In this document: positions 1 to 62,402 of the stretch, piece after piece
Numbering within the stretch: position 1 is the stretch's first letter
Layout of the letters: each line of letters opens with the position of its first letter
Assembly (NCBI RefSeq): GCF_963675165.1
Contig: NC_087380.1
Location: forward strand, 574,303-638,302
Direction: 5' to 3'
DNA from: Halichondria panicea
Lineage: Eukaryota > Porifera > Demospongiae > Suberitida > Halichondriidae
DNA length: 64,000 nucleotides
Notes under the pieces: generated by a model
The model's input: only the letters and a program-made list of their open reading frames with translations
Told to the model about the DNA's origin: nothing
Databases searched by the model: none
Made by a program: the position numbers and the translations under genes

Positions 1-1548
1 ACAGAGCTGTGTTGTTATTGTAGACAGTGCCTCCAATGGACAGGACAATGACTGCAGGGGAGCAATGAGTAGTATTGAAGCTGTGTAGGTCACACTCACA
101 TTCACAGGCAGGGTCACTAGCTCCACATTCCATTAACTTGACATGTTCTGATCATATCTCCGCCAGTCAGAGTGTATCCAGGGTTACAGGTGTAGGTAGC
201 AGTCATCATGAAGGTGGTTCCAGAGGATGTGTCCACTGCTCCATTGGAGGGGGCGTCCAGGGAACCACAGTTGACAACTGTAACAAACAAGTAACTTAAC
301 ACTCACAGACAAAGTGTTCAGTAATAAGACTGTAGGAAATCATGGGAGGCCACAACACATTGGTATAACATACTTTCACAAACTGGTGCAGCTGGACTCC
401 AAACTCCATCAGTTAGTGTAGTTGCTCCACTTGTTCCACTTGCTCCACAAGTTCTGCTCACAATACCAACAATGTTGTATCCAGTGTTACAGGTGTAGGT
501 AGCAGTCATCATGAAGGTGGTTCCAGAGGATGTGTTCACTGCTCCATTGGCAATTGTCAGTGGTCCACAGTCAACAGCTATATGGGGTGATGCTCAGTCA
601 CTATTACTTCCAACCCACCATTACTAACTCACATGGACAAGTTGGTGCCACTCCAAACCATTCACCAGTAGCAAGACATTGTCTAGCAGCACTACCAGTG
701 AGGACGTAGCCAGTATCACAGCTGTATGCAGCAATGGTGAGGTAGTTGAAGCTAGGGGTAGCCACGTTTCCATTGGTAGGGGAGGTTAGGACAGGGCAGG
801 TGACGACTGTGTTGGGGAAAATAAACACACACTAACTACTTACTAGTTCTAGTCTTACTTGTACAAGTGGGTGGTGTTGCAGACCAGGTACCAGCACTAG
901 TAGTACCAGTACTCATACAAGTTATTGCAGTAGGGTTGCTCTTCTATCCGTGGTTCCACTGATGAAGTACCCAGTGTTACAGGTGTAGGTGGCCATGTTG
1001 GTATCTCGGTCATATGAGATAATTCCATTAGACAGTGGACTCAGTGTGGGGCAGAGAGCTGTGGGGGGTGGGGGTTAGTATTGGACATAGACAATATAGT
1101 CAGCACTCACTGAAGGTGACACATATCCTCAGTGAATTGTCATTCCTCCTACAGCAGTGTTCTCCATCAGGACTGTAGTGTGTGGGACCACGATGCAGAA
1201 CAACAGCTCCAGTAACACCACTGATGAACATTTCAATCCCAGTTGCATCCCTGCCGAAAACTATGGGTACTGCACTCCCATCAGGGAACACCCACGATAC
1301 ACGAGCATTGTTGTCATTGTAGCAATGCCAGACTGGTGGATTAGTACCAACTCCTGGTCCAAAATCAGAGAATGAGATGATCTGTCCAGTGCGGTCAGTG
1401 GTAGGGGGGTCACTTGGTAATGCCAGTCGAACTGTATGCCATAATTGATGCTCTGATACCAAATCTATACTACTACTATATCTAGATTACACCAGTAGCA
1501 CAAGATTTAATTATAGAACCATAGATGATACAGCTGTTTGCATAGACC

Positions 1549-3047
1549 ATAGATGTAGGAGAGAGGGATTGGAAACGGAAGTAGATTTCAATGTACTTCA
1601 CATATGACCTCGATAAACATCCGCGCCTCGCTTAATGAGGGCTAATCTATTCCCCAGGAACTTCGCGGGTAACTGAGATTATTGCAAATCTAGGATTTTA
1701 TGAGTTGTCACCAGTATCCAGTGCAACTGTGCTTTATATAGATAGTGAATAACCATTATTCAAGCTCTATTTACCGTTGCAACTATCTTCTTCATTGAAT
1801 TTAGGTAAGTTTAGTCTTGTATTGTACACATTTATCCCTTTTTCTCTGAAATGATTAATGTTTAGGTCGTATACTTCAATATGCTTGTTGGTAAATCATG
1901 TGGTATCACCCCAAGCCAAAGAAAATTAGTCATACATCAGCTGGTAGAATTTAGTGCTAGAAAAAAGTTGAATTAAAGAGCACCACTAAAGATCCCTTTT
2001 TTGGGAATACGCTAAGCGTTACAGAAATTTTAATTTTAGGCATACATTCCCTTATGATTGGTGATCACCCCAAGAGCATTAGTTTTGAATCAGGTGGATG
2101 TATAGCTTTTGTGTGCATGAATGTGTAATCACCTATTTTTACCCTATAATTGTTATTGGCCCGGTAGTAGATTGTGGTGAAGGGCCTGTAGGCCCGAGAT
2201 ATTTAACTACTACAAATGCTGTTTCATCTATATTTTATATAGCAATACCTCGCAAGCCAAAACTTACTGAGTACGCTGAAGAAAAGAAGACAGAAGAATA
2301 CCCCTCCTCTCTACACCCCTACACGTCACCGCCCTCGTAAATGTTATCGGCTGTTCCGGCTATATATACACCCTTGTATACCTCACCAGCTTCTCTCCAT
2401 CTAAGACTGTCTGATTAGAGTGCTAAACTAATCATAATTATAGCTGTAATAATCATTTTTATCGTGTAAGTTTTTGTTAATGTTGTTCGGTTTGATCCCA
2501 CTCGTTTTACACTTAGAAAGCAACTGGCAGTGCTGTGGAGTGTTTTGCTGTCTCCAAGTGTATGTAATTATACTTAATGAATTGGAAATTGAAACATACG
2601 CTCACCAGCCTAGTATATATAGAAACTTCGTACAATTGATTCATCAAAAGTGAAAACAATTATTAAGAAAGTTACATGGTGTATTATGTATCTTGTCGTA
2701 TGAATGATCATGGTTATTGCCTGGACTTCTTGATGGTTTTCTTTTTCGTTGGCAGCAAAAGAGAAGCCTCTGACAGTCACAAATACATTCACAATTTCAG
2801 GGAACTAAGCATCCTCTGATGATTTTATATCTACTGTGAAACAAGTATCCAATACCACTAGCTCTGCACGTTCTCCTTACTATTATACCATGTACCAATG
2901 CACTGTTGATTGTGTCTCTTTCCCTCTTCTTTCACCGCTTATGCAATGAGTTTTCCTCATTTGAGGCAAGAAAAGAAGACAAGAAAGCGAGGCGCGGATG
3001 TTTTCCGAGGCCCACTTCCGTTTCCAATCCCTCTCTCCTACATCTAT
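1549..3047. mobile_element. Mutator-like non-autonomous element with 9-bp target duplication
   Basis: The ends are inverted repeats: ATAGATGTAGGAGAGAGGGA at 1549 and its complement ending at 3047. Similarity continues through GATTGGAAACGGAAGT and then, less exactly, to a GCGCCTCGCTT block. GCATAGACC flanks both sides (1540-1548 and 3048-3056). A 9-bp duplication with long inverted ends is typical of Mutator-like elements. The only sizeable reading frame (plus strand, 2098-2340) has no recognisable domain, so I read the element as non-autonomous. Confidence 0.75.
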
Positions 3048-3572
3048 GCATAGACCGTGCAAAATACTACATGTAACTCATTCACTGCATTACCACAAAA
3101 CCACCATACAATGTTGCTATGCAAACAAATAGTATTGGGTACATTCACATTCATAAAAAGTGAGCAATGGTGCATGACTTCAAGAAATAGACTACATGGA
3201 GAGTCATAGAACCGGGAGGATTTGAAGTAGAGAATGGTCTACCAACGCCTTATGCTGAGACTTGTGCTGTACGAAAAATGTTTACGCTAAAGAGCCTACT
3301 AACTTGCTCACTGCGGTATACCGGTTTTGACCATCAAGTCCGAACATAATTATTTCTCTACTAGATTAGCACCAAACAATATTTTGTGATCTGTTAGTGT
3401 TTAAGGTACTTCGTACTAACAGTTTCTTCAGCCTGAAACTTCAAGCCTCACCATAATTATGTGAGTTTCCATACCACCAAGAGTAGATAAAAGCATCTAC
3501 TCTTGATATAATTTATACCACCTTATACAGCAGGTATTTTTCGAGGGTCTACTCAAAAAGTACCCGTTATAC

Positions 3573-4652
3573 TAGCCTCGATCCCAGGCCGAGTTTTCGC
3601 TTTTATAACGGTTAGGCGAACAACTGGGCCTGGTACTAGTTGTCTGCGCATGCGTCAGTCGTTCGTCAGATTCTGACGAATGGATATTCTCGTTCACTTT
3701 TGTGACATTTATATTCGTGTACTATCGTGTACTAGAAGTCAGTTCCCGTTTTATCATTATTGGAATCGATTGGAATGGCTCTTAGCTGAAGCTTCTCTCT
3801 TCTCTGAAGCTTATTCTGAAGACTGAACAACAAGGGAAGAGGTATAAAGCTTTGTCAAGCTTGTTAAGGTCAGATATTTTTGTGTGGGCCCTATGGCCGG
3901 CTATGCTATCAAGTCTTGTTCATGTTTGGCAAGAATGTAGGTAGACTATAGTTTCATCATTAATATGGTGGATCAAGTGAAGAGTGTGAGCTAGAGAACT
4001 TGGTGCTGCCATCATCAGCTCGTCGACAATGACACTATAACCGAGAAATTTAATATGTATAGATCTACACGTATTTAAAATGTCTACTTCTCTGCAATGG
4101 CTAATATCCAGCTATCCCAACAGTGCTCCTCTTGGCTATACTAACGGACGAGACTGGACAGTTTGAGGTAAGGGTTTAACCGTCTTTGGTTTCTTTTAAT
4201 ATTGTCCTATACTCACAGACACAGGACTGGAGTATGACCTGCTCATTCGAGCGTTGCTGGGTAGCTCAGAGACATCAAGAGAATCTACATTTTCTCAAGC
4301 AATGAGTTACGAGTTGGGGCCTAGAATCAGAGAAGTCCAGCAGCCTGCTGAATCTTTTTGAAACGTAATTTGAAGGCATTCAATCATCCTGAAGTTGCCC
4401 TGGGTCACTGTAATTGTGCTGCAGCACAACTGGCAACTCCCCAGGCCTTTGTGAAGCAGCTCCCTATGTGCATCTTTTGTGTACTCACTCTGTGCATTTT
4501 CTGTGTAGAAATTTCGATTATTGATTTATTAAATATTTTTGCCGACCACAAATATACAATGAAAATTTGACGCATGCGCAGACAACTAGTACCAGGCCCA
4601 GTTGTTCGCCTAACCGTTATAAAAGCGAAAACTCGGCCTGGGATCGAGGCTA
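3573..4652. mobile_element. Foldback element with 85-bp inverted termini
   Basis: 3573-3657 and 4568-4652 are near-perfect inverted copies, starting TAGCCTCGATCCCAGGCC and ending GCGCATGCGTCA. The interior of about 900 bp has no convincing coding region. The same terminal motif recurs at 9068, 10155, 5247-5264, 62571 and 63660, so it marks a family. Confidence 0.75.
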
Positions 4653-5191
4653 CCGTTATACAAGTTCTAGAAACCATCATTGCTCAGGACTGCATGTTGT
4701 TTGCATAGCAACATTGTATGGTGATTTTGTGGTTTTGTGGTAATGCAGTGAGCTGATTTAGTATTTTGCAAGGTCTATGCAAACAGCTGTACAGTACTGT
4801 GTCATCTAACAGCAAACCTATTGACTAGTGAAGTTTGCGGTAATAAATACAGTAAAGCTAGTTGTACTGCATATCAACTCACTCAAATTCTGTCCATACA
4901 CAAGAGAAACACTTCCCAGCAGACAGCAGAGAAAGAGAGTTACAGTAGCCATTCTCTAGTAGCTAGCTACCAGTATGTACGTAGACAGATCTACGTACAG
5001 ATAATTGTAAGAGCACGCAAACAATAATGGGCGTGGCTTTTCGAGGATTAGCCTCTAAAAGCTATTTCGTTGTACAATGTTTGCGGAATGACTGCTTACC
5101 GGGAAGCTACGCCTTTAATGTGGTAATTCAATTTTCTTGTACATGTAGGATTCTAACCCACGAAATCCGCGCTATACGGTATAATTATATC

Positions 5192-7199: not shown

Positions 7200-10100
7200 T
7201 TAAAAGTTTGCGTAAGTATCGAAGGAGTTCAAGTAGACCAACAAGGCCTCGAAAACATCCTTGTAGTTGTCCTGTGAGGGGGAGTGGCACATTAATACCC
7301 ATACACACTGTGGTGTGCTATGTGCATGGCCTGTTACATTGTATACTAATTATGGGGAAACAGCTGCTGAGAGGTCTGGCTTGTATTAAGTGGTGCAGGC
7401 TCTATATAACAGCAGATGAACTCACGACTGAGGGTACTGCCCCTGGCTTGTGGACCCTGAGAGCCTTGACCACCTGGAACACATCCACCACTCCCTCTGT
7501 CTTGCAACGGTCAATGGTAGTAGCTACAGAGCAGTACATACCAGAGCGGGTCGCAGTGTCACTGGATACAATACAATATTACTAGATACATAATTACTCA
7601 CAACAGATCCTCACCTGCAGTGGACCACAATCGCCTTGTTTCCAGTCCTCCTTTGAACCTTTATAACCTCCTCATTGACGTCAGTTACAGTCTTGAGGTT
7701 CTCACACTTTCCACTGCTATTCCAGTTAGTGATGTGGAACTGGATCACTTGAAGGGCCTTTTGGGTCTGCATGGAGGAAACAAGGAATAAAGAGAGGTTT
7801 GAAGGCAACAAAGAGATGCATGACGTACCTTTTCATTGAGGACGCTCAGTTGCCTCATAATGAACCCAGTGTTGGTTTCCTCCCCCAAGTTATCGATGGT
7901 GAACTCACCGAAGGAGGTGACATTGCCACTCTCTGGCCAGTACTGGGAGCATGCCTCCTACACACACACACACACTCAACAGGGAGGACCTCTAATGGAG
8001 ACCATCTCTTACCTTCCCATTCTCACTGAGTGGAGTCAACATCACAACAGCCGCACAGTTCCTGTCATAGATCACCTTCCAGAAGTTACGCACAGTTGAG
8101 TCCAGTGGATTCTGGGCAATGATGTATGCCTTCTGGTGCTTGTGGCCCTGGAGGGAGGGAGGGAACCATGAGAGTACAATAGGTCAAGGGCTCTAGTAGT
8201 TGAACACTTACATGAGCAAACACAGCATGAATGTAGTCAGGTTGCTCTCCCTTCAGAAACACACGACTATTGTCAGCTGTAGAACAACACAGTAAACGGA
8301 CCCAGCAACAGTTGATTGGAGCTTACCTGGCAAGTATTTTTTCCCCCTGTTCTTGTCCATCGATTCGAGGGCAGCACTGCTGTTAATCTCGTTAGGATTT
8401 GGAGATACTTGTTCCAGAATTTGGAACTGGTATTGGAATCCAGAGACGGTTTTTCCCGGGGGCACTGATGACATATTCAGTATCTGTCTGCGCAGATCTC
8501 CAGCACTGATCTGAGTGTCTCCACACGTCACTGACTCCAGGATAGCATCGTGGATGAACACATATTGGTCCTATAGGTAGAGGGGCAATGAGCATGCTCA
8601 GTAGAATCAAAATGACAGCAGTGATACAATAGTAATTAAAGGACTGTGCTTACTTGAGTCTGGACCATTTTCATCCTCTGGTTACGAGCTCTGACAATGG
8701 TACCAGAAATATCAACGATACCCTCGGCTGAGATCTGATCAAGGACATTATCAATGGCAATGTAAGTGCCTGTGCGTCCCACACCAGCACTGCAGTGGAT
8801 CAGAATAGGACCTTTCGATGGCTTGTATTGGGACTGGACCCGACGATGGAACCCAAGAATGGGCGTGGCATAGTCAGGCACACCGTGATCAGGCCACGTT
8901 GTGAAGTGAAACTGAGTGGTCTTGAGGAACTTCCTGTCTCCTTCAATCTAAAGTAGTGAAAGCACAAGAATAATAGTAGGGGAATACATGAAGTCATAAA
9001 AGGTAGCATACTTAGCTCATTACACAAAGTAATATAATTAATTAAGGTATAAGGTTACATGAAGCTCTAGCCTCGACTCCAGCCCCTTGAATAGTGGGCC
9101 TGGTATTTACTGTTGGCGCGTGGGTGGACAATTAATTTATTATTTACCGTATTTTATCTCATTGAACGTTAAAACAGTTATTATGATAGAGAACAGAAAA
9201 AAGAAAAAGAAGAGGCTACCTCTCTCTGTATATACTGTAGACAGAGACAGCTAAGTAAAACATCAGCTCTGTAGATTTATTCATTAACTTGAGGCTCGGA
9301 TCGGATACACACTCAGGCGACAAGTTAATCTCATAAGAAATTAGTTAAACCTGTGGGTAAAAAATAAATGTGGATAAGTACAGTGTCTGTGACGTAACAT
9401 AATGTGAGGACTACTTATTGATTTACACAATAGATTTACCATTGAAAGCACTATCCATTAATACACACTCAAGCAACAAGTCCGGATACACACTCAAGCT
9501 ACAAGTCCCTCGGATCGGATACACACAAGTCCCTCGGATTGTAAACACATTCAGGTCACACAGTTCTCGGATCAGATACCATGTATACTCTGTGAGACCA
9601 ATTTTCGGCAAATGTCACAACAATACTTCCTTCCAGAGAGAATGGCACTGAACGTCGAACAGACACACCAACACTTTGAAGATGGCTTCACTCAGAGAAA
9701 CAAGAGGAGAAATCACACTTCTTTCAGAGAGAGGTGCACTGGTCCTGTCAAGCTTCACATCAATCAAGAAAGGGAGTGTCTGGAAAGCAGATGGACTTGC
9801 TCTGGGACTTGCCATAGCCGGTCGGTACGGTACCCACATAAACACCAGCGTACAGACACTTCAACGCCTCCAGCTGCTTGTCTTTCAAGACTAGACCTGG
9901 TTTTCCAACACAGGATAACGCGTACGCGAGAGCAGAAGAGAAGGTAGCAGCCATTACACAACTTGGACTAGATTTCTTTTTTCAATGACATCATTATAAA
10001 TGAAACGGATATCAATGTTTTACAAACTAATGCGGAATAAGAATACTGATAAATATACTGCAATTTACGATTACCCAGATTCTGGGTAATTCTGGCGCAT

Positions 10101-12138
10101 GCGTAAACAGTGTATACCAGGCCGCCTTTCTCAGCGGCTTGGAATCGAGGCTAATGAAGCTCTTGTAACAAGATTCTTACAGTGACTTTGAGGGTCCTGA
10201 CGGTGTAGTCAGCAAAGATCTGCTGTTCTGTAATGGCCACTGTGAATGGTCCAAACTGCTTCTTCCCAGACTCGGGCCAGTATGGTTGACACTTGACCTT
10301 GTTGTTCTCCATGAGGTTGGTGAGCATGACTATTATGGGTGGTCTCTCCTGCCACATGAGCCGCCAGAAGTCCACCACAGTGCGAGGTATAGGACCTGCA
10401 TTGATACCATGATATTATATTCACAACTTGAGAACGTGTGTTGACTGTTGTACATTCTTCACTCACTGCTAAGCAGATTCATAATGGAGTCATTAACTGA
10501 TAAATGGTGCTTGTATGTAGTGCAATTATGTACCTTGTGTGGCAATGAACTTCCTGGGTGCTTGGTAGCCCTGGAATAGAAAAAACATAGGTGGTGAGCA
10601 TACAGTGGTGACTATAGTAGCCAGCTCATAGCCATGCATAACACGAAGCATTCAAGGCACACACACTCACGTCTACATAGCAGGCATTGATATAGTCACT
10701 CTGACAGTCCTCTTGTCCAAGGATGGGTTGCAACACAATACGGTTGTCATCATCTGCATGAGGCCAGAGGAGTAAGGTGGTTTCATAATGTGCACATAAT
10801 TAGAACTCCATATTAGTACTTTGTCAACCATGATGTGCTAAGTAAAGTTATTTCAAGCATAATGAACAAACACACCAAGAGAGCAGTTTCAGTGTAACAC
10901 TTACACACGGCAATGTTCCCGAATCTATTGCACAGCTTGTTCTCAGGTATCTTTGCCACGACCACATCATGTCCCTTCTCACCATTGTCCAATGTCTACA
11001 GGGCATTTATTATCAGCTACAAGAAACTAACAAGACTACAAGATCTAAAATACTGATAATACTACATGATTAACACTTTACCTTGTAAGCATCTTTGAAC
11101 TTGAGGTTTCCATTGGCATGCAGATCACTCACAAACACACCAAGCTGCTCCACTGGTAATGGTCCCAAGTCAATGTTCTTATTGACAGGGGGAGGCTCTT
11201 CATTCTCACCCCTAACAGAGAGGTGTACTTGCTTCTCAATGGATCCAGAGTCATTGACAGCAGCAAGCTTGTAGTTACCTGTGTAGGGGTCATGTAGAGC
11301 ATGGGTTCTCATGAGCAAACAGTTGTTATCCCAGCATATGTGGCAGCTATGTTATTGTATGTGCTGGGGTATGTTATGAAACAACTATAAACACATTCCA
11401 ATAACCAATACAACACTACCTTGTGTAGTACATGTACTCACCAGCATGCTTAGTCTCCACACTAGGGAAGGATATTCCACCGTCCTGGTCCAGTTCTGTG
11501 GCATAGTCTGCAGTCACCTTCCTACCATCGTGGTACCAGGTGAGACTGGGTGGAGGGTGACCTCCCACCTTCACCCTCAGATACACCTCCTCCCCCTCCG
11601 TCACATGAGTATCACTAGGAAACTCTACTATACTAGGCTCTGAAATATAGACAAATAGTTGGTGCTGAAAGTTGAACAAACAGAACTTAGCTCTAAACAT
11701 AACTGTCAATTGCTTTTAATATAGCTAGGAATGTTGTATTTAGGCCACCTAAGACACACACACCTGTGTCTTTAGGAGTGAGCACACTACTCAGAGCTAC
11801 TGCACCATCATCTCTTCTGTCCCTAGTGTAGTGAGTGTAGGGAGCTGGTTTAGCAGGAGTATCAGAGGTCAGAGTTCCTCCCTTCAGCACAGGGGCATAC
11901 TTGAGCCTATTTAGTCTCATACGCCTACACACACACCAATGGTATTGTGATCGAGTGAGAATCAGCACAAAGTGATAATCACCTGACAAAGATGACTGCC
12001 ACAATGATGCCCACTACTATCCCCACAATGGCTATCACAGCAACAATGACACCACCGACTATAGCCCCAACATCACCACCACTAGTCACTGGTGGAGGAG
12101 TAGGCACTACAGAACAGAGGGTGAATGAATCAGCTAAG

Positions 12139-12169
<31 letters not shown>

Positions 12170-14549: not shown

Positions 14550-14727
14550 CTACTTGTTCTCTGTGTTGCAGTCAGTGGATGCATAAGCTGCACAGGCTGA
14601 GAGCTGGTAGTCTGCAGGAGGAGGGGGGCGTGGCTGGTCCACCACCTCATAGGTAGCCTCCTCTTGTAGTTTACTCAACCCCTCGTAATCATGGGAGGGG
14701 AGATGACTCATCACCACTGGGGGTAGT
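14550..14727 (-). other. R7 cytoplasmic tail exon with ITAM-like tyrosine motif
   Basis: Reads LPPVVMSHLPS, then YEGL, eight residues, YEVV, the proline stretch PRPPPPA, YQLS, YAST and a terminal NTENK with TAG. YxxL-x8-YxxV is close to the ITAM spacing, with Val in the last hydrophobic position. The stop lies only 177 bp from the R8 start codon at 14372. Confidence 0.8.
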
Positions 14728-16138
14728 CTGCATGAAATAGAAGAATGGCATAACTAAATAGTATACATCAATAATTATAATATTAGCAGTAGACTAACGC
14801 TATTCCAGCTCTCTGAAGTACGGCCACCTCGATATACCAGCCATTTGGTTTGGCATAGATTGCTAGCTAGATGGCTACTGCACACAACTCTCCCTGAAAT
14901 GCAACTCTAACCACACCAGTACACACGTGTACAGCTATTTCATTCACAGACGTACTAGACCATGCATAATTAATACGGTATACAATAAAAGCACATAATT
15001 TGATAACCGACAGAAACTCTACACATAGTTAAAAACAAACACACCATGCATATAGAAGAATGGAATCTATTAACTATATACATGGAATAATTAAATACAC
15101 AATCATAACAAAAGCTCTCTACAATCATACCGGTATACACGTAGTTATGACAGCTACTTCCTTCACACACTAACACTCACTGTCTTGGTTGGCTGCCTGT
15201 CTTTTCATCACTCATGTCCTTGGATCCATACCTCCGTAGCCTTAGTAACAACAGCACCACTATTACAATCAGTACTAGCACAGCAATGGCCAAGACTCCA
15301 GCAACCACCCCACCAACCACTGCACCAACATTGACCACTACACTCTCTGTGGGTGAGGTAGTAGCAGTTGTCCGATTAGTGATGTCCTCAGGGCACTCTG
15401 GACTGTCTCTGTCAGTGATCACCACAGGGCAAGTGTTTGTCAAACCAAGTCGGGTACTTTGTACGATGATGCTTGAAGTGTCGCTGATCCATTGTTCAAT
15501 TAAAGAAATGAGTTCCACAGCAGACACAGTTTCTGTTGCAGTCAGCACAGCTCTGTAGGTCACGTGACTAGAGGAGCCGTCAAAACAATTGATGAACTCG
15601 TCAGTGAGAAAGGAGGGGATGAACCCACAAGCACACAATCCTTCAACACCTTGAGATAGTCTGGTAGTGATGCAATGTACACCTCACAGTTTGTTATTCC
15701 ACCAAAACGAAGTTGAATGTTGAGTGCTATAAAACAAAAATAAACTGTTACCAAAAAAATTATGTGAATCCATATGAACACACTATAGTTACACGATCTT
15801 TAGTAAGGTTTTACATGAATGACTTTCAGGTTCCAACTTACTCCTGAACTCAATGGTGTAGTGAGCAGCTACAGTGTGTTCCCCCTCAAGCTGACTGGAG
15901 GTGAGGATGACCTGACAGCTGTACTGACCAGCGTCTGACAAGTAGAGAGTGTCAAAGTTGAGGGTTGCTGTGCTGGTCATGAGTGACCCTCCCTCCCTCG
16001 TCCACTGGTAGGAGAGGGTGGGTTGTAGAGAGGCCCCTCCACTCAGGGAACAAGTGAGGGAGAAACTCTGACCAGCCATTGGACCACCACTGGGGCTTAT
16101 CACTAGGAGCTCTGTGAAATAATAACAATGTAGTTATG

Positions 16139-16645
16139 CCTCGGCGCGCATGCGCAAGCGAGGTATATGGTATAGTGTGTTTGTGTGTCTGTGTGTGTGT
16201 CTGTGTAGACTGCTACAGCTGCTCAAGGATGAATCAAGTGCAAGTAAGAGTTTGTATAGGCTTCTAGTCATGTTTACTTGGATTTTAATTCGTGGATTTG
16301 CAAAATAATGCTTCGTTCTCGAGTTATGCCTAGTTTTGCTTATTGGAATGCCATTGCAGCCTTTTCAGAAGAGCACGTAGCCAAACTTGTTTACCGAGTG
16401 TTGCTACTCTACTTAGTAGTTAGCTCTGCACTAGAACGCTAGCTATTGGTAGCTGCAAGAGTGAGAAGAGAGCTGCAAGGCTCTGCTATTATGCAGCCAT
16501 TAATTTTAGACTTGAACTTTTGGCATCGATCGTTTTCAATCATGGTTGATCATTACCCACTCTCAGAGTTTTTGCATGCAGCAAAATTAATCATGTGTAT
16601 TAGTAACTTTATGTTATGTAGCTTTGGCATCTCCACCGAGGCATC
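16139..16645. mobile_element. Probable MITE with GCCTCGG ends in an R7 intron
   Basis: Starts GCCTCGGCGCGCATGCGCAAG and ends CCACCGAGGC, giving short inverted termini, with a GT-rich stretch near 16180-16205. It sits between the Ig exon and the fourth Sushi exon. Nothing coding is recognised. Confidence 0.4.
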
Positions 16646-49162: not shown

Positions 49163-50405
49163 ATTATAATTATTCTAGTATAAGGGCAGAAGGTCTCTAT
49201 ACAACCACACTGGTATGTACAGCTACTTCATTCACAGACCATGCACACTAACACTCACTGTGTTGGTTGGCTGCCTGTCCTCTCATCACTCATGTCCTTG
49301 GATCCAGACCTCCGTTGCCTCAACATAACCAGCACAAGCAATATGATCAGTACTAGCACAGCAATGGCCAAGACTCCAGCAACCACCCCACCAGCCACTG
49401 CACCAACATTGACCACTACACTCTCTGTGGGTGACTCTGAGGTAATAGCTATAGAAGATGTTGGAGTAGCCACCTGCGTCCGATTAGTGATGTCCTCAGG
49501 GCACTCTGGATTATTGAGGTTAGCAATGACAATCGGACAACTGTTAGTTACACTGAGGCCTGCTCTCTGCACCACAACGATTGGATCATTCTCAACCCAC
49601 TGTTCCATTAGCCTAGCCAGTTGTATGGTGGATACACTCTCTGTTCCAGTGAGCACAGCTCGGTAGGTCACATGACTAGGGGAGTCGTCAAAACAAACCA
49701 TGAATGAATTCAAAATGAGGGAGGAGTTAAATCCACAGGCACACTGGCTTTCAATGCCTTGTGTCAGACTATTGGTGATGTCATCTGTTTTCATATCAGC
49801 GTCTAGTTCAGTGTACACTCTGCAGTTTGTTATTCCCTCCAGACCAAGTTGAATGTGCAGGCCTATGGAATGTGGAATAGTTGGAAAAGAAGCCTGATGC
49901 CAATAAAGCTATATATACATCATTGGGAGATTCACATAACAACTAGTCTGTTTACATTGTTCGTGTGAAATTGAATCAACAGCTACAAAAACAACATTAC
50001 ACTTACTCATGAACTCAATGGTGTAGTGAGCAGCTACAGTGTGTTCCCCCTCAAGCTGACTGGAGGTGAGGATGACCTGACAGCTGTACTGACCAGCGTC
50101 TGACAAGTAGAGAGTGTCAAAGTTGAGGGTTGCTGTGCTGGTCATGAGTGACCCTCCCTCCCTCGTCCACTAGTAGGAGAGAGTGGGTTGTAGAGAGGCC
50201 CCTCCACTCAGGGAACAAGTGAGGGAGAAACTCTGACCAGCCATTGGACCTCCACTGGGGCTGATCACCACTTGTATGGCTGGATGGAAGAGAGTGGGTG
50301 TAAACAAAACAATAATAATGTAAAGAAGCTTTGTTCACTTTCACTATAGCAGAATAAACAAAGCTGCTACAGCAACACATGAGAGGCTATAGACAACAAC
50401 AAAAT

Positions 50406-50578
50406 ATAGCGGGTGGGGTAAAAAATTCGTTCAACCTCGAAAACAGAGATTCACGGAAGTAAACATTTCATTGTCTGCACTGCATTGTATGCGTTCCGGT
50501 AAGCCACACCTACATTTTTGTGGGGACAATTTCGTGGAGGTCAGCTTGCCCACGAAAATTACCCGCTATACGGTATAG
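50406..50578. mobile_element. MITE, same family as 12816-13025
   Basis: Begins AGCGGGTGGGGTAAAAAATTC and ends AAAATTACCCGCTATACGGTA. It shares GTGGAGGTCAG, GCCCACGAAAA and GTAAGCCAC with the R8 copy. Located in the R2 intron between the last Sushi and Ig exons. Confidence 0.55.
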
Positions 50579-53500
50579 ATTCATGTACTGTTTTTGCAAT
50601 GCCTATAAAGGTAGGAAGAAAGTAACACATGTGTGAGAACTGACTTTGACAGAATGGCTCAGTCCCACTCCAGCTACGGTCTGGTTGACATGTTCTCATA
50701 ATTATTGTCTCCACGCAGCAAAAATCCCATCCCACAAGAGTAAGTGGCAGTACTCCCATCAGTACGTGGAGGAGAGGTTGATGAATAGGTAATGACTCCA
50801 TTAGTGATGCTGGGTAGGTCCTCACATGTTCCTGTAAAGATACCATAATTATAGGGATTTTAATTGAAGATAATAGCTTACCAATACATGTTAGCATTGA
50901 TCCACTCCACATTCCTCCACTAGCACTGTCAGTACATGTCCTGGTAGCATCACCAGAGAGCACAAACGAGTCACTACAGATGTGGGTAGCCACTCTACCC
51001 ACTGGGATAGGAGGGTTGTCCATAGTGTAAGTGATGTCACCATTTGATAGAGTGAGAGCAGGACAGCTTGCTGTAAGATAAGTCATGTACACTAAAGGGA
51101 CAAGCAATAAAGGAAGATACCTTGACAGACAGTGTCTCCTCCACTCCAGGTATTGTCTGATTGACATGTTCTTGTTCTGGGACCAAAGATATCGTACCCA
51201 GTGTCACAGGTGTAGGTGGCCACTGTCCCCGCTGGTCTTGGGGAGAACATCGTATCATAGCTAATCACTCCATTAGCAGGTGAGGGAAGATCCTGACAAA
51301 TAGCTGCATGAATACAATATACAGATATGATCTTTACATATGAGGAACAGTATTCTCCACAGTAGCATTTTTTGCCATTCACCAACCTGTACAGGTAGGA
51401 GTACCACCAATTAGCGCACTCCACCCAGTGGTAGTACAAGTCCTTGATAGTGTCCCACTGAAGTCATACCCAGTCACACAGCTGTAGGTGGCAATGGAGT
51501 CCATAGCTCTGGGGATGGTGGTGTCACTGTACGTCACTCCTCCATTGGTTGGTACGCCAAGGTTGGGGCAAATCACTAAATGGAAATAAGTTGATCGTTT
51601 TCACCATCAACAGCTATAACAATAACTTGTGACACCCAAACAATAAATCTTACTCACGATTACAAATCAGCAGAAAAAATTCACAATTTGTAACTGTGTT
51701 CGTTATAAGGTACCATCTATACACTTGACTACTACACGAGGCATACCAGTACAGGTGGGTGCAGTGAGGCTCCATGTTGTATTAGCCTGACAAGTCCTGG
51801 TCACAGTTCCAACCAGAGTGTATCCAGTGTTACAGGTGTAGGTAGCAGTCATCATGAAGGTGGTTCCAGAGGATGTGTCCACTGCTCCATTGGAGGGGGC
51901 GTCCAGGGAACCACAGTTGACAGCTAAACGACAAAAATAAATTTGTATTTGATATTGATGTCATACTCACGATTACAGGAAGGTTCTGACCCACTCCAGT
52001 CTCCATTAGCCTGACAAACCCTGGTCATATCTCCACTACGTGTGTAGCCAGTGTTACAGGTGTAGGTAGCACTGCTTTGGTAGATGGTCCCTGCTGTAGT
52101 GACTCTTCCATTGATAGGATCATCCAATGATCCACAGCTAACTACTGTAAGGAACAACATTACATGTGTACAATGTGCCTATTAAACTTCTAACCTGTAC
52201 AAGTTGAATTACCACCATCAGTCCACCCACTGACACTACAGGTCCTTGGTACACCTCCACTGAATTCATACCCCAAGACACAGCTGTAGGTAACCGTGGA
52301 ACCCACAGCTCTGGGAATGGCGACGTCGCTGTAGGTCACCACTCCATTGGCCGGTAGTTGGACGTTGGGGCAAATCACTGAATAGAAATAGCATTTAGTT
52401 ATATAACTCATAAAGTCGTTAGTTTGAGTACATACGTGTACAAGTGAGGGATGATCCACTCCATGATCTATCAGACTGACAGGTCCTAGTGCCTCCACCA
52501 GCTAACACGATGTACCCAGTGACACAGCTCTGTGTAGCCATGGTTCCCTGAAGGTGTGGTGAGGTACTAGAGCCATAGCTAATCATTACATTGACCAGTG
52601 AAGGAAGGTCATCACAGAGGGCTGTGGGAAATAGTCTGATACAATACCTTCAGTGATGTGTCTTACCTGTACACACTGGTGCTGTACTCCAGCTCCCACT
52701 AGCAAGACAAGTTATCATGGCTGATCCTGACCATTGGTACCCAGTGTTGCAGGTGTAGGTGGTCGTCTCTCCAAATGTTGTACCAGTAGAAGTCCTGCCA
52801 CTATTGGTAACAGTAGGAGGGTTGCCACAGGAGACAGCTGAATGGGAGAGGAGGGAGGTGTCAGTCATAGTGAAACATTTAATCACATGCATACGTTCAC
52901 AAACTGGTGCAGCTGGACTCCACACTCCATCAGTTAGTGTAGTTGCTCCACTTGTTCCACTTGCTCCACAAGTTCTGCTCTCACTACCAACACGGACGTA
53001 TCCAGTGTCACAGGTGTAGGTAGCAGTCATCATGAAGATGGTTCCAGAGGATGTACTGACTAGTCCATTATTAATAGTCAGTGGTCCACAGTCAACAGCT
53101 GTGGGGAGATGCTTGATCACCATTACTTCTAACCCACCATTGCTAACTCACGTGGACAAGTAAATGTTGGTGCCACTCCTGACCACACACCGTCAGCTTG
53201 ACATGTTCTAGCACTACCACTATTACCAGTGAGGACGTAGCCAGTATCACAGCTGTATGTAACAACAGTGAGGTAGTCCCGACTAGTGGTGGACAAGGCT
53301 CCATTGGTAGGGGAGGTTAGGACAGGGCAGGTGACGACTGTGTTGGGAAGCCATAGCTTATACACACAATGAACTACTGACTAGTCTAGTCTTACTTGTA
53401 CAAGTAAGTGTAGGTGGTGGTGGAGACCAGGTACCAGCACTAGTAGTACCAGTACTCATACAAGTTATCGGAGTAGCTCCACTGATGGTGTACCCAGTGT

Positions 53501-54396
53501 CACAGGTGTAGGTGGCCATGTTGGTGGTTGCATCGTATGAGATCATTCCATTAGACAGGGGACTCAGTGTGGGGCAGGGAGCTGTGGGGGGTGGGGGTTA
53601 GTATTGGACATAGACAATATAGTCAGCACTCACTGAAGGTGACACATCTCCTCTCATTGGTGGCAGTCCTCACACAGCAGTGTTCTCCATCAGGACTGAA
53701 GTGTGCGGGACCACGATGCAGAACAACGCCAAAATCAGGAACATCTCTGATGAACACTTCGTCCTCAACTGCCAACACTCTACTTTCAAGTTGCAATGCA
53801 CTCCCATTGGGGAACAGCCACAATACACTACCAGTATCTTCGGTGAAGCAAAGCCAGGGGCGTGGTGTACCACTAGCTCCTGATCCAACATCAGTGAATG
53901 AGATGATCTCTCCAGTGTGGTCAGTGCCATCACCGAATTCATTGGATGCTGCCAGTCCAGCTGTATGCCATAATACAATAATTGATGCTCTGATACCAAA
54001 CCTATAATACTTGTTTCATCTACTATCCAATAGCACAGCTATTAGCTTAGCCATAATTATAGCTGACTGCATGATAGTATCTATGCATGATCTATATCAA
54101 CTCACTCAAAGCCTGCCCATACACTAGGGAAGCACTTCCCAGCAGACAGCAGAGAAATAATCTTGAGGGGAACATTCTCATTATTCTTGTAGCCAAGAGT
54201 TCATTATTCATCCTATATTAAATAAACTCTTGCTATAAGGTTAGCTGATATTGCTCAATTGCATTCTTGCGAATCTGTCATACTGAAAGCACACACTATA
54301 CAAAGTCATGGATAAGGAAGTGTGCACATGACATGTCTACATTGCAGTTCTATAGAATAACACTGTTCAGTGGTCCCAGTTAGTGTGTGTATAGTG

Positions 54397-56516: not shown

Positions 56517-59500
56517 CTACTTGTTCTCTGTGTTGAAGTAAGTAGTGGGTACATAAGCTGCACAAGCTGAGAGCTGGTAGCCTGCAGGAGGAGGGGGGCG
56601 TGGCTGGTCCACCACCTCATAGGTAGCCTCCTCCTGTAGTTTGCTCAACTCCTCGTAATCTTGGGAGGGGAGATGACTCATCACCACTGTGGGTAGTCTG
56701 TAAGGGAAATAGAAGAATGGAATCCTATATATATACATGCACACATGGGCAGAAAAGGTCTCTATACAATCACACCATATATGCACTGTACAGCTACTTC
56801 ATTCACAGACCATGCACACTAACACTCACTCTGTTGGTTGCCTGCTTGTCTTCTCATCACTCATGTCCTTGGATCCAGACCTCCGTCGCCTCAACATAAC
56901 CAGCACTATTACAATCAGTGATAACACAGCAATGGCCAAACCTCCAGCAACCACCCCACCAGCCACTGCACCAACATTGACCACTACACTCTCTGTGGGT
57001 GAGGTAGTAGCAGTTGTCCGATTAGTGATATCCTCAGGGCACTCTGGACCGTCTCTGTCAGTGATCACCACAGGGCAAGTGTTTGTCAAACCAAGTCGGG
57101 TACTTTGTACTATGATGCTTGAAGTGTCGCTAATCCATTGTTCAATTAAAGAAATGAGTTCCACAGCAGATACAGTTTCTGTTCGAGTCAGCACAGCTCT
57201 GTAGGTCACATGACTAGAGGAGCTGTCAAAACAATCAATGAACTCGTCAGTGAGAAAGGAGGGGCTGAACCCACAAGCACACAATCCTTCAACACCTTGA
57301 GATAGTCTGGTAGTGATGTCACTGGCTTTGGCCATTGTCTCTAAGTCAATGTACACCTCGCAATTTGTTACTCCATCCAAACGAACTTGGATGTTGAGTG
57401 CTATTATAATATGTTTACCATAATCAAATCTGTATACGTATCAACACTACCTATATACACAATCTTAATTGGGCGTCAGGGTTTCATCTAGGATTAAAAG
57501 TTTGGGGGGGGGGGAGGTTTACGCACGCCGCCAAATGTTTGGCCACTCGCACATTTGTTGACCACACCCCTATTACATGCTAGTACATCACAGTAGATCT
57601 AGTTACATATTCCACATCATAGACAGTACTAATGTGATGATGTCATTATTATACAAATATTTTGGGGGGGAAGATGAGTGTTTTGGGGGGGGAAGATTCA
57701 CTAGATGAAACCCTGGACGTGATTGTTTAATGGAAATGTATATGCTTTTCAACTTACTCATGAACTCAATGGTGTAGTGAGCAGCTACAGTGTGTTCCCC
57801 CTCAAGTTGACTGGAGGTGAGGATGACCTGACAGCTGTACTGACCAGCGTCTGACAAATAGAGAGTGTCAAAGTTGAGGGTTGCTGTGCTGGTCATGAGT
57901 GACCCTCCCTCCCTCGTCCACTGGTAGGAGAGGGTGGGTTGTAGAGAGGCCCCTCCACTCAGAGAACAAGTGAGGGAGAAACTCTGACCAGCCATTGGAA
58001 CACCACTGGGGATGATCACCAACTCTGTAAACATCAGAACAATGTATAGTTCCATCCACTGAGATGACAGAATGATGACAACAGGTGTACCAAAATGAAT
58101 TATGCACGGCTACTGTTAACATACAATTGATGTTGCTAATAACTTGCGTACGTAAACAGGTTGGAGCATCTGGAGTCCACTGTCCATCAATACCACAAGT
58201 CCGAGTGTTTGCTCCAATGAGAGTGTATCCAGTGTTACAGGTGTAGGTAGCAGTCATCATGAAAGTGGTTCCAGAGGATGTGTCCACTGCTCCACTAGAG
58301 GGGTTAGCGAGGCCATTACAGTCAACAACTGCATGTAATTATCGTAATTATAAGGTATCCTCTATACACTTGACTAGAATATTTTGCGAGCATCAGATAT
58401 ATATGCGAACTTTGCGAGGATTGATCAATTCACAACAATAAAACACTGGTAAATATACACATGATCCTTACCAGAACGCACTATAGTTAGATCTAAAAGG
58501 GTCAATTTTTCTGCTCATTTGGCTCATTTGCAAAGGTTTTTCACCAGCAAAATATTCTAGTAATACAGTTATTGTAAGAGTAGCACTTGGCTATAATAGA
58601 TGGTTTGTATGTATATAGCCTCGATTTCGTTCTAAACACCAGCAAAAAATAATTCCAGAAATAAAAAAATTTTGCTCTTCTGTGGCGCTATAATCAGAAG
58701 GAAACAGTACAGAGTACTCACATGCACAAGTAACTGTAGGTGGTGATGGAGACCAGGTACCAGCACTAGTGCCATCACTCATACAAGTTATCGGAGTAGC
58801 TCCACTGATGGTGTACCCAGTGTCACAGGTGTAGGTGGCCATGTTGGTGGCTGCATCATACGAGATCCTTCCATTAGACAGGGAACTCAGTGTGGGGCAG
58901 GGAGCTGTGGGGGGTGGGGGTATTGGACATAGACAATGTAGTCAGCACTCACTGAAGGTGAGACATCTCCTCTCTGCAGGGCCTTCAGCAATCCTCACAC
59001 AGCAGTGTTCTCCATCAGGACTGAAGTGTGAGGGACCACGATGCAAAACAACGGCAGTAAAATCAACACTACTGATGAACAGTTCGTCATCAACTGCATC
59101 CCTGTCGCGAACTATGGGCAATGTGCTCCCACCAGGACCCTGCCACACTGCACCAGCAGGTTCAGTGTAGCAATACCAGGCTCGTGGATCAGTACCAACT
59201 CCTGATCCAACATCAGAGAACGAGATGATCTCTCCAGTGTGGTCAGTGCCAGGGGGCTCAGTGGGTGATGCCAGTCGAGCTGTATGCCAATAATACAATA
59301 ATTGATGCTCTGATACCAAATCTATACAGTGCAACAATCAAAGAGAGTAGTTTTTTTTTCACAGTTTGTTGCATATCTTTTGAAGTTTAGGTGATGTGAT
59401 CTATTTGAGTGCAGGTACTGAAAGTTCAACTATTGGCGCTTCCATTGGACCACCTCCTGTTACATCATGTGACATCATCAATATAAATCGGCTGTCTGAA

Positions 59501-62402
59501 GATGTGTACTTCCGAAAATATGTTAGTAATAAAAGTAGCTTATTTGTTTGAGTTAAGATGTGAAATTTGTTGTGCATGTACCTGAGTATATTGCTCATCT
59601 TTTGAATGAAATATCAAGAGAAATCGAATGACATAAAATCGAAAGTTGTATTCCTAACATATTTGCCACCAAAAAACAACAAAATGCAGTATTTCTCAGA
59701 ACTTACTAGTAGCCCAGACTTCTGTTGAAGCTTACAAGTTGAACAATATACTCAGGTACATGCACAACAAATTTCAGATCTTAACTCAAACAAATAAGCT
59801 ACTTCTATTCCTAACATATTTTCGAAAGTACACATCTTCAGACAGCCATTTTATATTGATGATGTCATGTGATGTAACAGGTGGTGGTCCAATGGAAGTG
59901 CCAATAGTTGAACTTTCAGTACTTGCACTCAAATAGATCATATCACTTTTACTTTAGAAGATATGCCACAAGATTTAATAGTATTACACTACATATAAAA
60001 ATAGTTTGCAGTATTACACTGCAATCAACTCACCCAAAGTCTGCTTTTCCAGTAGGCTACAATCGAGGCTATAGGGAGTGGCTACATTTACTTCTATTTA
60101 GAACGTGACATAATTCAACGCAGTGCCAAACTGTGAAATATCTATTCAACGCAGCTGTCGCTATTCTTAGAGGTCAGAAGCTCCAGGGTGTCGCATATTT
60201 GGAGGGTCGCTTTAAATCGAGGTATTGCGGTATAGTTACTAGCTCGACTCGTGCTCTTAAGTCTTAACTCTATACTACCGTATTACTAGAATGTTTACGA
60301 ACATCAAACATATGCGAAATTTGTGAGGATTGATCAATTCACAGCAATAAAATACTGATAAATACACACGATCCTTACCAGAACGCACTCAAAGGGGTCA
60401 ATTTTTCTGCTGATTTGGCTCATTCGCAAAGGCTTTTCACCAGCAAAATATATACAGTAAAAGTAAAATATACAGTAAAAGTAAAAGTAGCACTTGGCTA
60501 TAATAGATGGTTTGTATCAAGAGTTCATTAGGAAAAGTACGCAACTCCACTTAAAACCATAGGGGGCGTTTCTCCAACTTACGTCGCAACCACATGCTGT
60601 TGTATAAACTGTGAAATCAAATTTGCAATGAATAACATAGTGATGATTCACTAATGTTATTCATTTACAACTGCCAGTAGGAAAGGCAGAGAAGTATGAC
60701 TCTTGGATGGAGTGATCCTAGTCGGGCGCCGCCGCTCGACTAGAGTGATCCCAGAGTCAGCTAACAGAGCAACAGACAAGTCACAATTCTATTGTAGTGA
60801 CCCATTTCCACTGCTTTTGGTATGGGATAACTTCAGCTGTAAATACGGAGGGTGCCTCGAATAAAGGCCGCGTGTAGTTAGCTAGCTAGCTGCCAACGTG
60901 CAAGTTCAAGCTTCTTTAATGGTTTTTGCTCGCTTTTATTCGACAACAAAGCTCTAACATCGAAATCTACAATTGTTAAAACTAATAACTTACTGTGTGA
61001 AGGCTATCCATGCTATAAACGCAGTGCTGTGGCAGCCAGGTGAGCAGACCCAGAAATTACAAACAGATAAACAGACAAACCAAACGACTACTATACTCGT
61101 GGCCACCCACGCGCGCCTCGGGTAATAATGTTGCACTTTTGGCGCTATAATCAGAAGGAAACAGTACAGTTAGTACTCACATGCACAAGTAACTGTAGGT
61201 GGTGATGGAGACCAGGTACCAGCACTAGTGCCATCACTCATACAAGTTATCGGAGTAGCTCCACTGATGGTGTACCCAGTGTCACAGGTGTAGGTGGCCA
61301 TGTTGGTGGTTGCATTGTACGAAATCATTCCATTAGACAGTGGACTCAGTGTGGGGCAGGGAGCTGTGGGGGTGGGGGTTAGTATTGGACATAGACAATA
61401 TAGTCAGCACTCACTGAAGGTGACACATCTCCTCAAATTGGGGTCAATGTTAACCCTCACACAGCAGTGTTCTCCATCAGGACTGAAGTGTGTGGGACCA
61501 CGATGCAGAACAATGGCAACTCCAGGAACACCAGTGATGAGCAGTTCGTCCCCAACTGCAGCTGTGTTGGCATTGTTCGGGATGCCTATGGGCACACCAC
61601 TCCCATCAGGGAGCTGCCACACTACACCACTAGGGTCTAAGGTGTAGCAATACCAGGCTGGTGGATTAGTACCAATTCTTGGTCCAAAATCAGAGAACGA
61701 GATGATCTCTCCAGTGTGGTCAGTGCTACCAGGCTCATTGGGTGATGCAAGTCGAACTGTATGCCATTAATGTAATAATTGATGCTCTGATACCAAATCT
61801 ATATACTAGTTTCATTGACTAGAATAAGATTTAGAGGACCAGTAAACAAATATAGAGCAAACCTATAGATTTGCAGTATTTGATGTAATAATTGGATGCT
61901 CTGGTACCAAATGTATAATACTAGTTTTATGTACTAGCTCTTGATTACACCAGTAGCAATTTACTATAGTTTGCATAATACCAGTGGCGGATCCAGTGCA
62001 GGGCACAAGGGGCACGTGCCCCCCCTTTCTGACCAGCTCGAATAAAACTAGCTCACAAAGTGGGTGTGGCTTAGAGCAGCAATCAATTATTGCAGCATGC
62101 AGACGATCTCTAGTTGTAGACTTTTGAAGCTGAAGAGCAAGATGATTCCATCCATTTCTGCTATCTCTTGCTACTATGTATGTCATACTGTCATCAATTA
62201 ATCCATGATCTGAAAAGCTACACTGGCTGGGCTTAAGTGTTGACCTTTTTTTAATACAAACTGCCCCCCCTTTTCAGGATCCGCCCCTGAATACAGCACA
62301 ACTATAAGTTGCTGCACTGCATATCAACTCACTCAAAGGTTGTCCATACACAAGAGAAACACTTCCCAGCAGACAGCAGAGAAATAACCTTGAGGGGAAC
62401 AT
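56517..62402 (-). CDS. R1: type Y receptor with duplicated Ig-Sushi unit, apparently intact
   Basis: Exons: signal 62333-62402 (MFPSRLF start, VYGQPL end); Ig-like 61415-61756; Sushi 61181-61363; second Ig-like 58953-59279; Sushi 58722-58904; Sushi 58152-58328; Ig 57758-58024 (LTCSL, YQWTREGG, YSCQV); membrane-proximal domain plus helix 56830-57400; tail 56517-56697 (YEEL, eight residues, YEVV, PRPPPPAGYQLS). All lengths keep phase and I find no stop. A signal exon expected before the second Ig-like exon is decayed at about 60025-60060 (only the last codons and the donor remain), so the gene probably uses the outer signal and carries two Ig-like units. Alternatively 61181-62402 is a stub and the rest is a separate, headless gene. 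The introns hold a hAT-like MITE, a repeat cluster and a long hairpin. Confidence 0.7.
56830..57400 (-). other. Membrane-proximal Cys domain and transmembrane helix of R1
   Basis: About 120 residues with CEVY, CACGFSP, CFD, HVTYRAVL, IEQW and TNTCPVVI, then ECPEDITNRT and a Thr/Ser linker, a Gly/Ala/Val/Leu helix and RRRRSGSKD. The same exon is found in R2 (49259-49862), R4 (27966-28539) and, deleted, R7. I do not recognise the family; size and position recall SEA domains, but no cleavage motif is obvious. Confidence 0.6.
57477..57715. mobile_element. MITE with CAGGGTTTCATCTAG ends and G-runs
   Basis: CAGGGTTTCATCTAG at 57477 and CTAGATGAAACCCTG ending at 57715 are inverted copies. Inside are three runs of 8-13 G (about 57513, 57662 and 57683). 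Located in the R1 intron between the Ig and membrane-proximal exons. Confidence 0.6.
58370..58613. repeat. Direct repeat, copy 1 of the R1 duplication
   Basis: About 240 bp (AGGATTGATCAATTCACA, GATCCTTACCAGAACGCACT, TAATAGATGGTTTGTAT) recur in the same orientation at 60285-60518. They mark the duplicated segment that contains an Ig-like and a Sushi exon. Confidence 0.75.
59366..59972. mobile_element. Long hairpin (inverted repeat with ~230-bp arms)
   Basis: Arms 59366-59598 and 59739-59972 are inverted copies sharing, for example, GATCTATTTGAGTGCA, CTGAAAGTTCAACTATTGGC and AGATGTGTACTT. The loop is about 140 bp. Each arm encodes the same short frame on opposite strands, which is a by-product of the symmetry. 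It lies in an R1 intron. Confidence 0.8.
60285..60518. repeat. Direct repeat, copy 2 of the R1 duplication
   Basis: Counterpart of 58370-58613, about 1.92 kb away. The match picks up again at GGCGCTATAATCAGAAGGAAA (61140 versus 58684), with unrelated repeat DNA inserted between. Confidence 0.75.
60655..61123. repeat. Inserted copy of the 41-49 kb repeat family
   Basis: Carries the blocks GTGACCCATTTCCACTG, TTTTTGCTCGCTTTTATTCG, GTAAC/CATGCTATAAACGCAGTGCT and the GC-rich unit CCCACGCGCGCCTCGGGTAA found in the R2 intron. It interrupts copy 2 of the R1 duplication. Confidence 0.65.
61982..62289. mobile_element. MITE with CAGTGGCGGATCC ends
   Basis: CAGTGGCGGATCCAG at the left and CAGGATCCGCCCCTG at the right are inverted ends. 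AATAC flanks both sides (61977-61981 and 62290-62294). The end sequence resembles common hAT-type MITEs, although the 5-bp duplication is shorter than the usual 8. It lies in intron 1 of R1. Confidence 0.65.

Follow-up and report, generated by a model that had tools for sequence, protein, structure and literature searches.

A sponge receptor array in which one diversifying immunoglobulin-like head is probably shuffled among opposing signalling ends

A 64,000-nucleotide stretch of the demosponge Halichondria panicea (hereafter the window; C4:574303-638302, where C4 is contig NC_087380.1) carries an array of receptor genes on its minus strand. The array appears to be real and unusual, and its genetics, as far as they can be read from the DNA, support the idea of paired receptors, that is, of similar outer parts joined to different signalling ends. 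It is fairly probable that the genes belong to a large demosponge family of recognition receptors that shuffles one diversifying head among opposing signalling modules. Each is predicted to encode a type I membrane protein whose outermost part is a diversifying immunoglobulin (Ig)-like domain, which we call Ig1, on a stalk of Sushi domains. The intracellular end is one of three: a short tail with two tyrosines in a spacing like that of the immunoreceptor tyrosine-based activation motif (ITAM) (class S), a receptor protein tyrosine phosphatase (PTP) with an active-type first domain (D1), an inactive-type second domain (D2) and a cytosolic Ig domain (class P), or a short tail with a YxxP motif (class T).

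The head sequence is uncoupled from S or P class. Searches covered the whole genome (131.5 Mb, 39 contigs), and the genome-wide match counts are lower bounds; Ig1 gave at least 73 matches, 10 of them in the window. Fifty-one Ig1 exons were available, and 49 (omitting L044 on C12 and L064 on C1) were used for the alignment, the tree, the identity tests and the estimates of synonymous divergence (dS) and of the ratio of nonsynonymous to synonymous divergence (dN/dS). The 41 exons from outside the window were picked among stop-free matches, so the zero stops in the 49 are no evidence of intactness. Mean nucleotide identity of Ig1 is 0.813 within S, 0.801 within P and 0.809 between P and S, and the closest P-S pair is 97.2% identical. 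The nearest neighbour is of the same class for 20 of 39 exons, as against a mean of 21.2 after shuffling; this test took 26 S and 13 P rows and omitted five U, four T and one doubtful P. Class labels were given by coordinates, the label m749 depending on a tail 10.8 kb distant and the label wA635 on loci A and B of the window being one gene. On the tree of the 49 exons, the S label changes 16 times, where shuffling gives a mean of 16.7 (224 of 500 shuffles as low), and the P label 11 times, where it gives 11.7 (197 of 500 as low). The starred branches by themselves force seven changes for S and seven for P. Together, the tree and the identity values suggest that S and P heads come from one pool.

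On C4, each Ig1 place was assigned to a class by its coordinates, i.e. by the module that comes next. For the 59 places so classed, a set without the three at 3.13-3.47 Mb and without fragments, weak matches or places on other contigs, that module is an S tail in 28 cases, a P module in 15, a T tail in 10, one of which depends on a tail match of E 0.08, and another Ig1 in the remaining six. At C4:1.27-1.38 Mb, nine PTP-class genes stand in series with their Ig1 exons 11-17 kb apart, and three short-tail genes follow them.

Selection appears to act differently on the head and on the signalling parts. By Nei-Gojobori counting with a codon bootstrap, dN/dS of the 49 Ig1 exons is 1.42 (1.03-1.91), and within P it is 1.60 (1.16-2.28); these values carry a caveat that tells against us, namely that the pairs are not independent and that misaligned indels may inflate dN. 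In four PTP loci, Ig1 reaches 1.90 (1.30-3.10), compared with 0.29 (0.15-0.51) for the PTP D1 exon, and in the same genes the PTP linker has 0.30 (0.16-0.56) and the cytosolic I-set domain 0.47 (0.29-0.79). The first Sushi domain of nine window loci has 0.57 (0.30-1.09). In the S tail, the point values are 0.40 for the motif block and 0.88 elsewhere. Such values would be expected of a head that diversifies while the signalling parts behind it are conserved.

An ordinary tandem expansion of adhesion receptors would account for part of these data. Heads would then be shared through recent duplication and local gene conversion, and each class would have a separate job, with no antagonism over one ligand. 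S tail copies are indeed very alike (dS ~0.09-0.11), hence recent duplications; the nine P genes in series and the 10 of 11 Ig1 places at 0.96-1.01 Mb that precede a T tail fit as well, and so do ectodomains that are class-specific near the membrane. Plain duplication does not, however, predict that heads from different clusters fail to sort by S or P class, nor that Ig1 exceeds a ratio of 1 where the catalytic exon of the same genes stays at 0.29. We regard this explanation as rather unlikely.

The genes of class S (loci B, D, F and I of the window) consist of Ig1, Sushi domains, a V-like second Ig (Ig2), a long exon that encodes both a SEA-like part rich in cysteine and the transmembrane (TM) helix, and a last exon that holds the tail. 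A signal exon was located for D, F and I. In four of the four loci, the TM exon ends in phase 2, the tail exon opens with one base, and the two join in phase across a GT-AG intron. No confident fold was obtained for the SEA-like exon, for which AlphaFold (five rows) gave a pLDDT of 32 and Pfam one sub-threshold match (E 0.051). Four short tails with YxxL-x8-YxxV had been described in the window, and all are present (at ~56.5k, 41.0k, 27.3k and 14.6k). With a limit of E 0.1, the genome has at least 53 tail matches, including two weak ones, which argues that the layout is not due to chance. We read 42 of the 53 (L112 was unused), and every one has the layout [Y/F]xxL-x8-Yxx[V/M]. The first motif residue is Tyr in 38 and Phe in four, while the second motif ends in Val in 40 and in Met in two. 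In one S gene elsewhere, L012, every exon that was read is open from Sushi to tail.

For class P, the prediction that two window loci end in an active-type tyrosine phosphatase held: D1 of J and E carries WPDHG and HCSAGVGRTG. Their D2 is of the inactive type, because WPD is replaced by WNS (J) or WKS (E), although J retains HCSDTATRSG there. In the J protein, Pfam recognizes four Sushi domains, an I-set domain (1.6e-13) and Y_phosphatase in two stretches (2.6e-136). From its N-terminus, the protein has the signal and Ig1, then the four Sushi, Ig2' (a second Ig, of the GLYCC kind), TM, basic juxtamembrane part, I-set, D1 and D2. Locus E has 29 open, phase-matching exons 3' of the signal exon; it carries 13 Sushi and agrees with J in its C-terminal plan. 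L086 (C4:530-536k) repeats the P plan from signal to D2. The J and E models hold the parts of a receptor-type PTP, namely a signal, a TM helix and a PTP domain with WPD loop and HCX5R. The membrane-near Ig of P genes is of the GxYCC kind (Ig2'), in contrast to the V-like Ig and SEA-like part of S genes.

A cysteine-free I-set Ig lies on the cytosolic side of the membrane helix in these phosphatases (11082-11639 in J, 35305-35951 in E, and at C4:573187 and C4:533093). Taken alone, it matches Pfam I-set at 1.6e-15, and the genome has at least 37 strong copies. Eighteen of the 37 fall in a plus-strand cluster at C4:332-482k, where the Ig1 search lists no match. L113 (C4:335701-342200), the sole stretch read there, has Sushi and Ig2' before the TM helix and then the I-set, with no Ig1. 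These I-set and PTP copies suggest that the P module also occurs without Ig1.

The array had been thought to hold only two kinds of tail, and this did not stand: there is a third. Locus K, moreover, is a further PTP gene. Genes of class T (L105) have signal, Ig1, Sushi and the Ig2' of the PTP class. Their TM exon is a different one, and their tail carries PVYEVP or PVYKAP. The tail has at least 11 strong matches, nine at C4:961-1007k and two on C1, and two more at E 0.08. T genes explain the Ig1 places at 0.96-1.01 Mb in which the next module is neither an S tail nor a PTP.

Candidate partners of the tails are encoded in the genome. SH2 domains have at least 71 genome-wide matches, of which few places were read. 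L018 combines two SH2 domains with a kinase part, and its best matches in PDB are SYK and ZAP-70 (1.5e-82); the exon for its kinase N-lobe was not located. By Pfam, L017 has the SH2-ankyrin-SH2-kinase layout of Shark and L015 the SH2-SH2-PTP layout of SHP. Two other candidates for a Syk-like gene were rejected: judged by eye, L016 is PLC-gamma-like and the SH2 pair of L019/L020 belongs to two separate kinase genes. The Syk-, Shark- and SHP-like genes could supply proteins that read a doubly phosphorylated tail or erase its phosphates, and some SH2 proteins may bind the S tail.

Based on these parts, a mechanism can be proposed. Unequal crossing-over or gene conversion would swap heads between classes, which would couple one specificity to different outputs. 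Since their heads are shared, S and P may share ligands as well. On engagement, the S tail would be phosphorylated and would recruit SH2 proteins, Syk or Shark first; a P receptor meeting the same or a similar ligand nearby would strip that phosphate, and the T tail would recruit another SH2 adaptor. The balance of S, P and T could then set a contact or immune response. We put forward only tentatively the wider proposal that the array serves allorecognition or immunity in a demosponge. Recombination would distribute one diversifying Ig head over ITAM-like, phosphatase and YxxP adaptor programmes, and a built-in phosphatase would replace SHP recruited by an immunoreceptor tyrosine-based inhibitory motif (ITIM), at the base of the animals. 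We do not favour the idea that one gene yields both tails through alternative splicing, since the TM exon differs from class to class and separate signal exons were found for J, E, D, F and I.

In the earlier note the array was read as paired-receptor-like, and that reading holds in part. It is favoured by interchangeable S and P heads, by a diversifying head next to a conserved catalytic domain and by the Syk-, Shark- and SHP-like genes; three kinds of tail, together with the points that follow, weigh against it or against the fuller explanation given here. As in vertebrate-type paired receptors, S and P have the distal domain in common, but the membrane-near domains differ, and S and P need not bind a ligand equally well. 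On the Ig1 tree, T forms clusters: its label needs 2 changes, and a value as low as this came up in 3 of 500 shuffles. Some clustering also shows when the five groups are taken jointly, with 18 changes where shuffling gives a mean of 20.9 (8 of 200 as low). Within S, the interval for Ig1 dN/dS includes 1 (1.32; 0.97-1.76), as does that for the S tail in 35 intact copies (0.69; 0.43-1.08). Ig1 likely has an Ig fold, to judge from its model, but the support is weak: the domain has no Pfam match, the AlphaFold model (38 rows) has a pLDDT of 73 and a pTM of 0.62, and the 50 Foldseek matches listed, which are NCAM, nectin-like, antibody and T-cell-receptor entries by description, have a best E of 0.04, with none below 0.001.

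To these points the motifs have to be added. None of the 42 S tails carries a canonical ITAM (YxxL/I-x(6-12)-YxxL/I), the second half being YxxV (40) or YxxM (2), and none carries an ITIM ([S/I/V/L]xYxx[I/V/L]). YxxPhi is an endocytosis motif that both YxxL and YxxV/M fit, and the S tail could accordingly be a trafficking signal of decoy or clearance receptors that are not coupled to kinases. The Phe that replaces the first Tyr in 4 of 42 tails is in line with this. Endocytosis does not need the exact x8 spacing found in 42 of 42 tails, and the genome has Syk- and Shark-like genes; neither point is decisive, and we consider such a role unlikely.

The last group of adverse points concerns damage. 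Three of the four short-tail copies in the window are affected: the Ig2 exon of D has a nonsense codon, that of F a 2-base insertion, and the TM exon of I a 28-base deletion that puts the tail out of frame. L011, an S copy elsewhere, has a stop in Ig2. Because the Ig2 exon is phase 1-1 in B, D and F could still make protein by skipping it; this does not apply to I. Among Ig1 matches, a strong one at C4:1393512 contains a stop, and frameshift-like splits occur at four places (C4:792k, C4:992k and two on C8). Part of the array is, judged by these lesions, decaying or dependent on exon skipping. A largely decaying array, with many pseudogenes and with relaxed constraint behind the raised dN/dS, would account for them and for the remnants at H and at 55.7-56.0k. 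Seventy of the 73 Ig1 matches are nevertheless stop-free, J is complete and E is open in all modelled exons, and relaxation would bring the ratio near 1 instead of giving 1.90 and 0.29 in the same genes; we find wholesale decay very unlikely.

The nonsense codons of two separate S copies, L011 (reverse strand ~449) and the window at ~50170, fall at adjacent codons of the Ig2 exon, hinting that this exon may be dispensable.

The window loci are collected in the table. They are tandem and on the minus strand within the range described before, but the nine loci counted then reduce to eight transcription units by signal exon. The ectodomain plan is likewise only partly shared: signal, Ig1 and Sushi are common, and the membrane-near Ig and SEA-like parts are class-specific. 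There are 10 Ig1 exons (GEHCC/GEYCC; a scan of the window for this motif also picks up one Ig2') and eight signal exons, all on the minus strand. Seven of the latter are of the FLCCLLGS kind (near 62390, 54163, 30847, 27102, 18536, 14360 and 4940), and the eighth, that of E, has diverged. The usual signal exon ends in QPL and has the donor GTGAGT. Sushi exons are numerous across the array, and ectodomain exons as modelled are phase 1-1 with in-frame joins.

Table. Receptor loci of the window (window positions; cytosolic and C-terminal parts listed separately).
Feature	Position	Strand	Details
Locus A, signal exon (MFPSRLFLCCLLGSVSLVYGQPL)	62333..62402	-	
Locus A, Ig1 exon	61416..61754	-	then Sushi exon ~61185-61397
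Locus B, short-tail class	56517..59279	-	Ig1 58953-59279
Locus B, further exons		-	Sushi 58722-58904, 58152-58328; Ig2 57758-58024; SEA-like/TM 56830-57409; tail 56517-56697
Locus D, short-tail class	41017..54211	-	signal 54106-54211; Ig1 53634-53960; ~11 Sushi
Locus D, C-terminal part		-	Ig2 exon with nonsense codon; SEA-like/TM 49259-49862; tail 41017-41194; last intron with repeats
Locus E, PTP class	31485..40462	-	signal 40384-40462; Ig1 39920-40252; 13 Sushi
Locus E, C-terminal part		-	Ig2' 36424-36771; TM 36279-36375; juxtamembrane 36017-36126
Locus E, cytosolic part		-	I-set 35754-35951 and 35305-35498; PTP D1 and D2 down to 31485; model without last exon
Locus F, short-tail class	27310..30859	-	signal 30790-30859; Ig1 30327-30659; 4 Sushi
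Locus F, C-terminal part		-	Ig2 exon with 2-base insertion; SEA-like/TM 27966-28539; tail 27310-27487
Loci G/H	20480..27114	-	signal 27045-27114; Ig1 26581-26904; second Ig1 20480-20806
Locus I, short-tail class	14550..18548	-	signal 18479-18548; Ig1 18008-18334; Sushi; Ig2 15842-16111
Locus I, C-terminal part		-	SEA-like/TM 15181-15726 with 28-base deletion; tail 14550-14727
Locus J, PTP class	7402..14372	-	22-exon model, 1256 aa, no stop
Locus J, exons		-	signal 14303-14372; Ig1 13842-14165; 4 Sushi; Ig2' 12182-12526; TM 11983-12106
Locus J, cytosolic part		-	basic juxtamembrane 11764-11924; Cys-free I-set 11442-11639 and 11082-11278; PTP D1 active-type, D2 inactive-type
Locus K, PTP class	117..4958	-	signal ~4889-4958; Ig1 1112-1429; Sushi frames up to window edge

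The reading frame of B is open from Ig1 through the stop. No signal exon of its own was found in the window for B or H, and A and B may be one gene, with B continuing A. Ig2', TM, I-set and PTP of K lie beyond the window, at C4:569801-574302 (read in L085). Loci G/H also have Sushi, Ig and FN3-like reading frames, and no complete signalling end was found in 20480..27114. Between their two Ig1 exons, 21303-25719 holds an Ig, several Sushi, and cysteine-rich and FN3-like frames, perhaps the leftover ectodomain of another receptor. Adjoining H, at 19215-19436, is a D2-like exon piece of a PTP that ends in VVHCR, a chimeric remnant.

Long LINE-like reverse transcriptase frames lie on the minus strand at 44443-46529, amid the repeats of ~41-49k in the last intron of D. 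Fragments that we take to resemble the RING part of UHRF proteins are scattered through the array (near 54507, 55500 and 63093, and in L011, reverse strand 2254-2802), apparently co-duplicated with it. Elsewhere in the genome, exons of silicatein, a demosponge gene, occur at C2:659k and C2:668k, with Ser replacing Cys in GDCGASYAFS, and ordinary cathepsin-like genes with GSCWSFS (L106, L107) are also present. The silicatein exons bear out the sponge origin that the earlier note supposed.

Beyond the aggregation factor, it is to our knowledge an open question which molecules underlie self/non-self recognition in sponges. The array supplies candidate receptors: their heads diversify, their outputs would oppose one another, and the same genome offers a Syk/Shark/SHP toolkit. 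This makes directly testable the idea that a balance of activation and inhibition in recognition predates bilaterians. The head-tail uncoupling would be a natural example of a single pool of recognition domains that feeds several outputs with no ITIM involved, and the cytosolic Ig within a receptor phosphatase is a further oddity. Neither such a sponge family nor a receptor phosphatase with a cytosolic Ig is described among the matches listed in openly licensed PMC literature (titles and abstract starts), which is no proof of novelty. The aggregation factor itself has Calx-beta and Wreath domains; neither is among the Pfam results for J and B, and the genome was not searched for them.

In vertebrate paired receptors (KIR, LILR, SIRP), inhibitory members carry ITIMs that recruit SHP, and activating members signal by way of an adaptor. 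The sponge array shares with them clustered genes, a near-identical distal ectodomain and differing signalling ends. In the sponge, however, one of the opposing members carries the phosphatase itself and the other has tyrosines of its own: an ITIM-bearing inhibitory member was not found, the 42 S tails having no ITIM and P having a PTP domain instead. Receptor PTPs of the LAR and CD45 kind resemble the P receptors in having a TM helix, an active-type D1 and an inactive-type D2. They differ from them in that the sponge proteins have a Cys-free I-set between the membrane and D1, a diversifying Ig head on a Sushi stalk, and tens of copies.

The Alr proteins of Hydractinia are self-binding. This family has 41 genes, with ITAM/ITIM motifs reported in candidate genes (PMC11999971, PMC12065747, in the excerpts used). 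Like the sponge array, it is an Ig-superfamily receptor array in a non-bilaterian, although neither a Sushi stalk nor a PTP class is mentioned for Alr in these excerpts. In another sponge, A. aerophoba, exposure to microbial patterns changes, among others, genes with Sushi and Ig domains and one for a tyrosine phosphatase (PMC6208332); this response may serve as a lead for an immune role.

Together with Alr, the nearest described systems include the fester co-receptors (FcoR) of the fuhc locus of Botryllus schlosseri, as excerpts of PMC12065747 describe them: 53 loci encode type I proteins with a signal, a variable-type Ig, sushi domains, further Ig domains, a TM helix and tails with tyrosine motifs. 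One kind of ectodomain is borne on different signalling motifs, namely a canonical ITIM, a hemITAM or a core YxxI/L/V, and the ampullae express Syk-family kinases, shp-1 and CD45-like receptor phosphatases (PMC12065747). Compared by layout only, the S class is strikingly alike in its plan of V-Ig, sushi, Ig, TM and tyrosine tail. FcoRs are marked by a V-type Ig, sushi, a C2 Ig, a TM helix and an ITIM or a hemITAM, whereas the sponge S tails have no ITIM. Unlike FcoR as described in those excerpts, the sponge array has a phosphatase-tailed sister class with interchangeable heads, a third, YxxP tail, a cytosolic Ig in the phosphatase and up to 13 Sushi, and it comes from another phylum. The array has the look of a counterpart, in an early-branching animal, to the paired receptors of vertebrate immunity.

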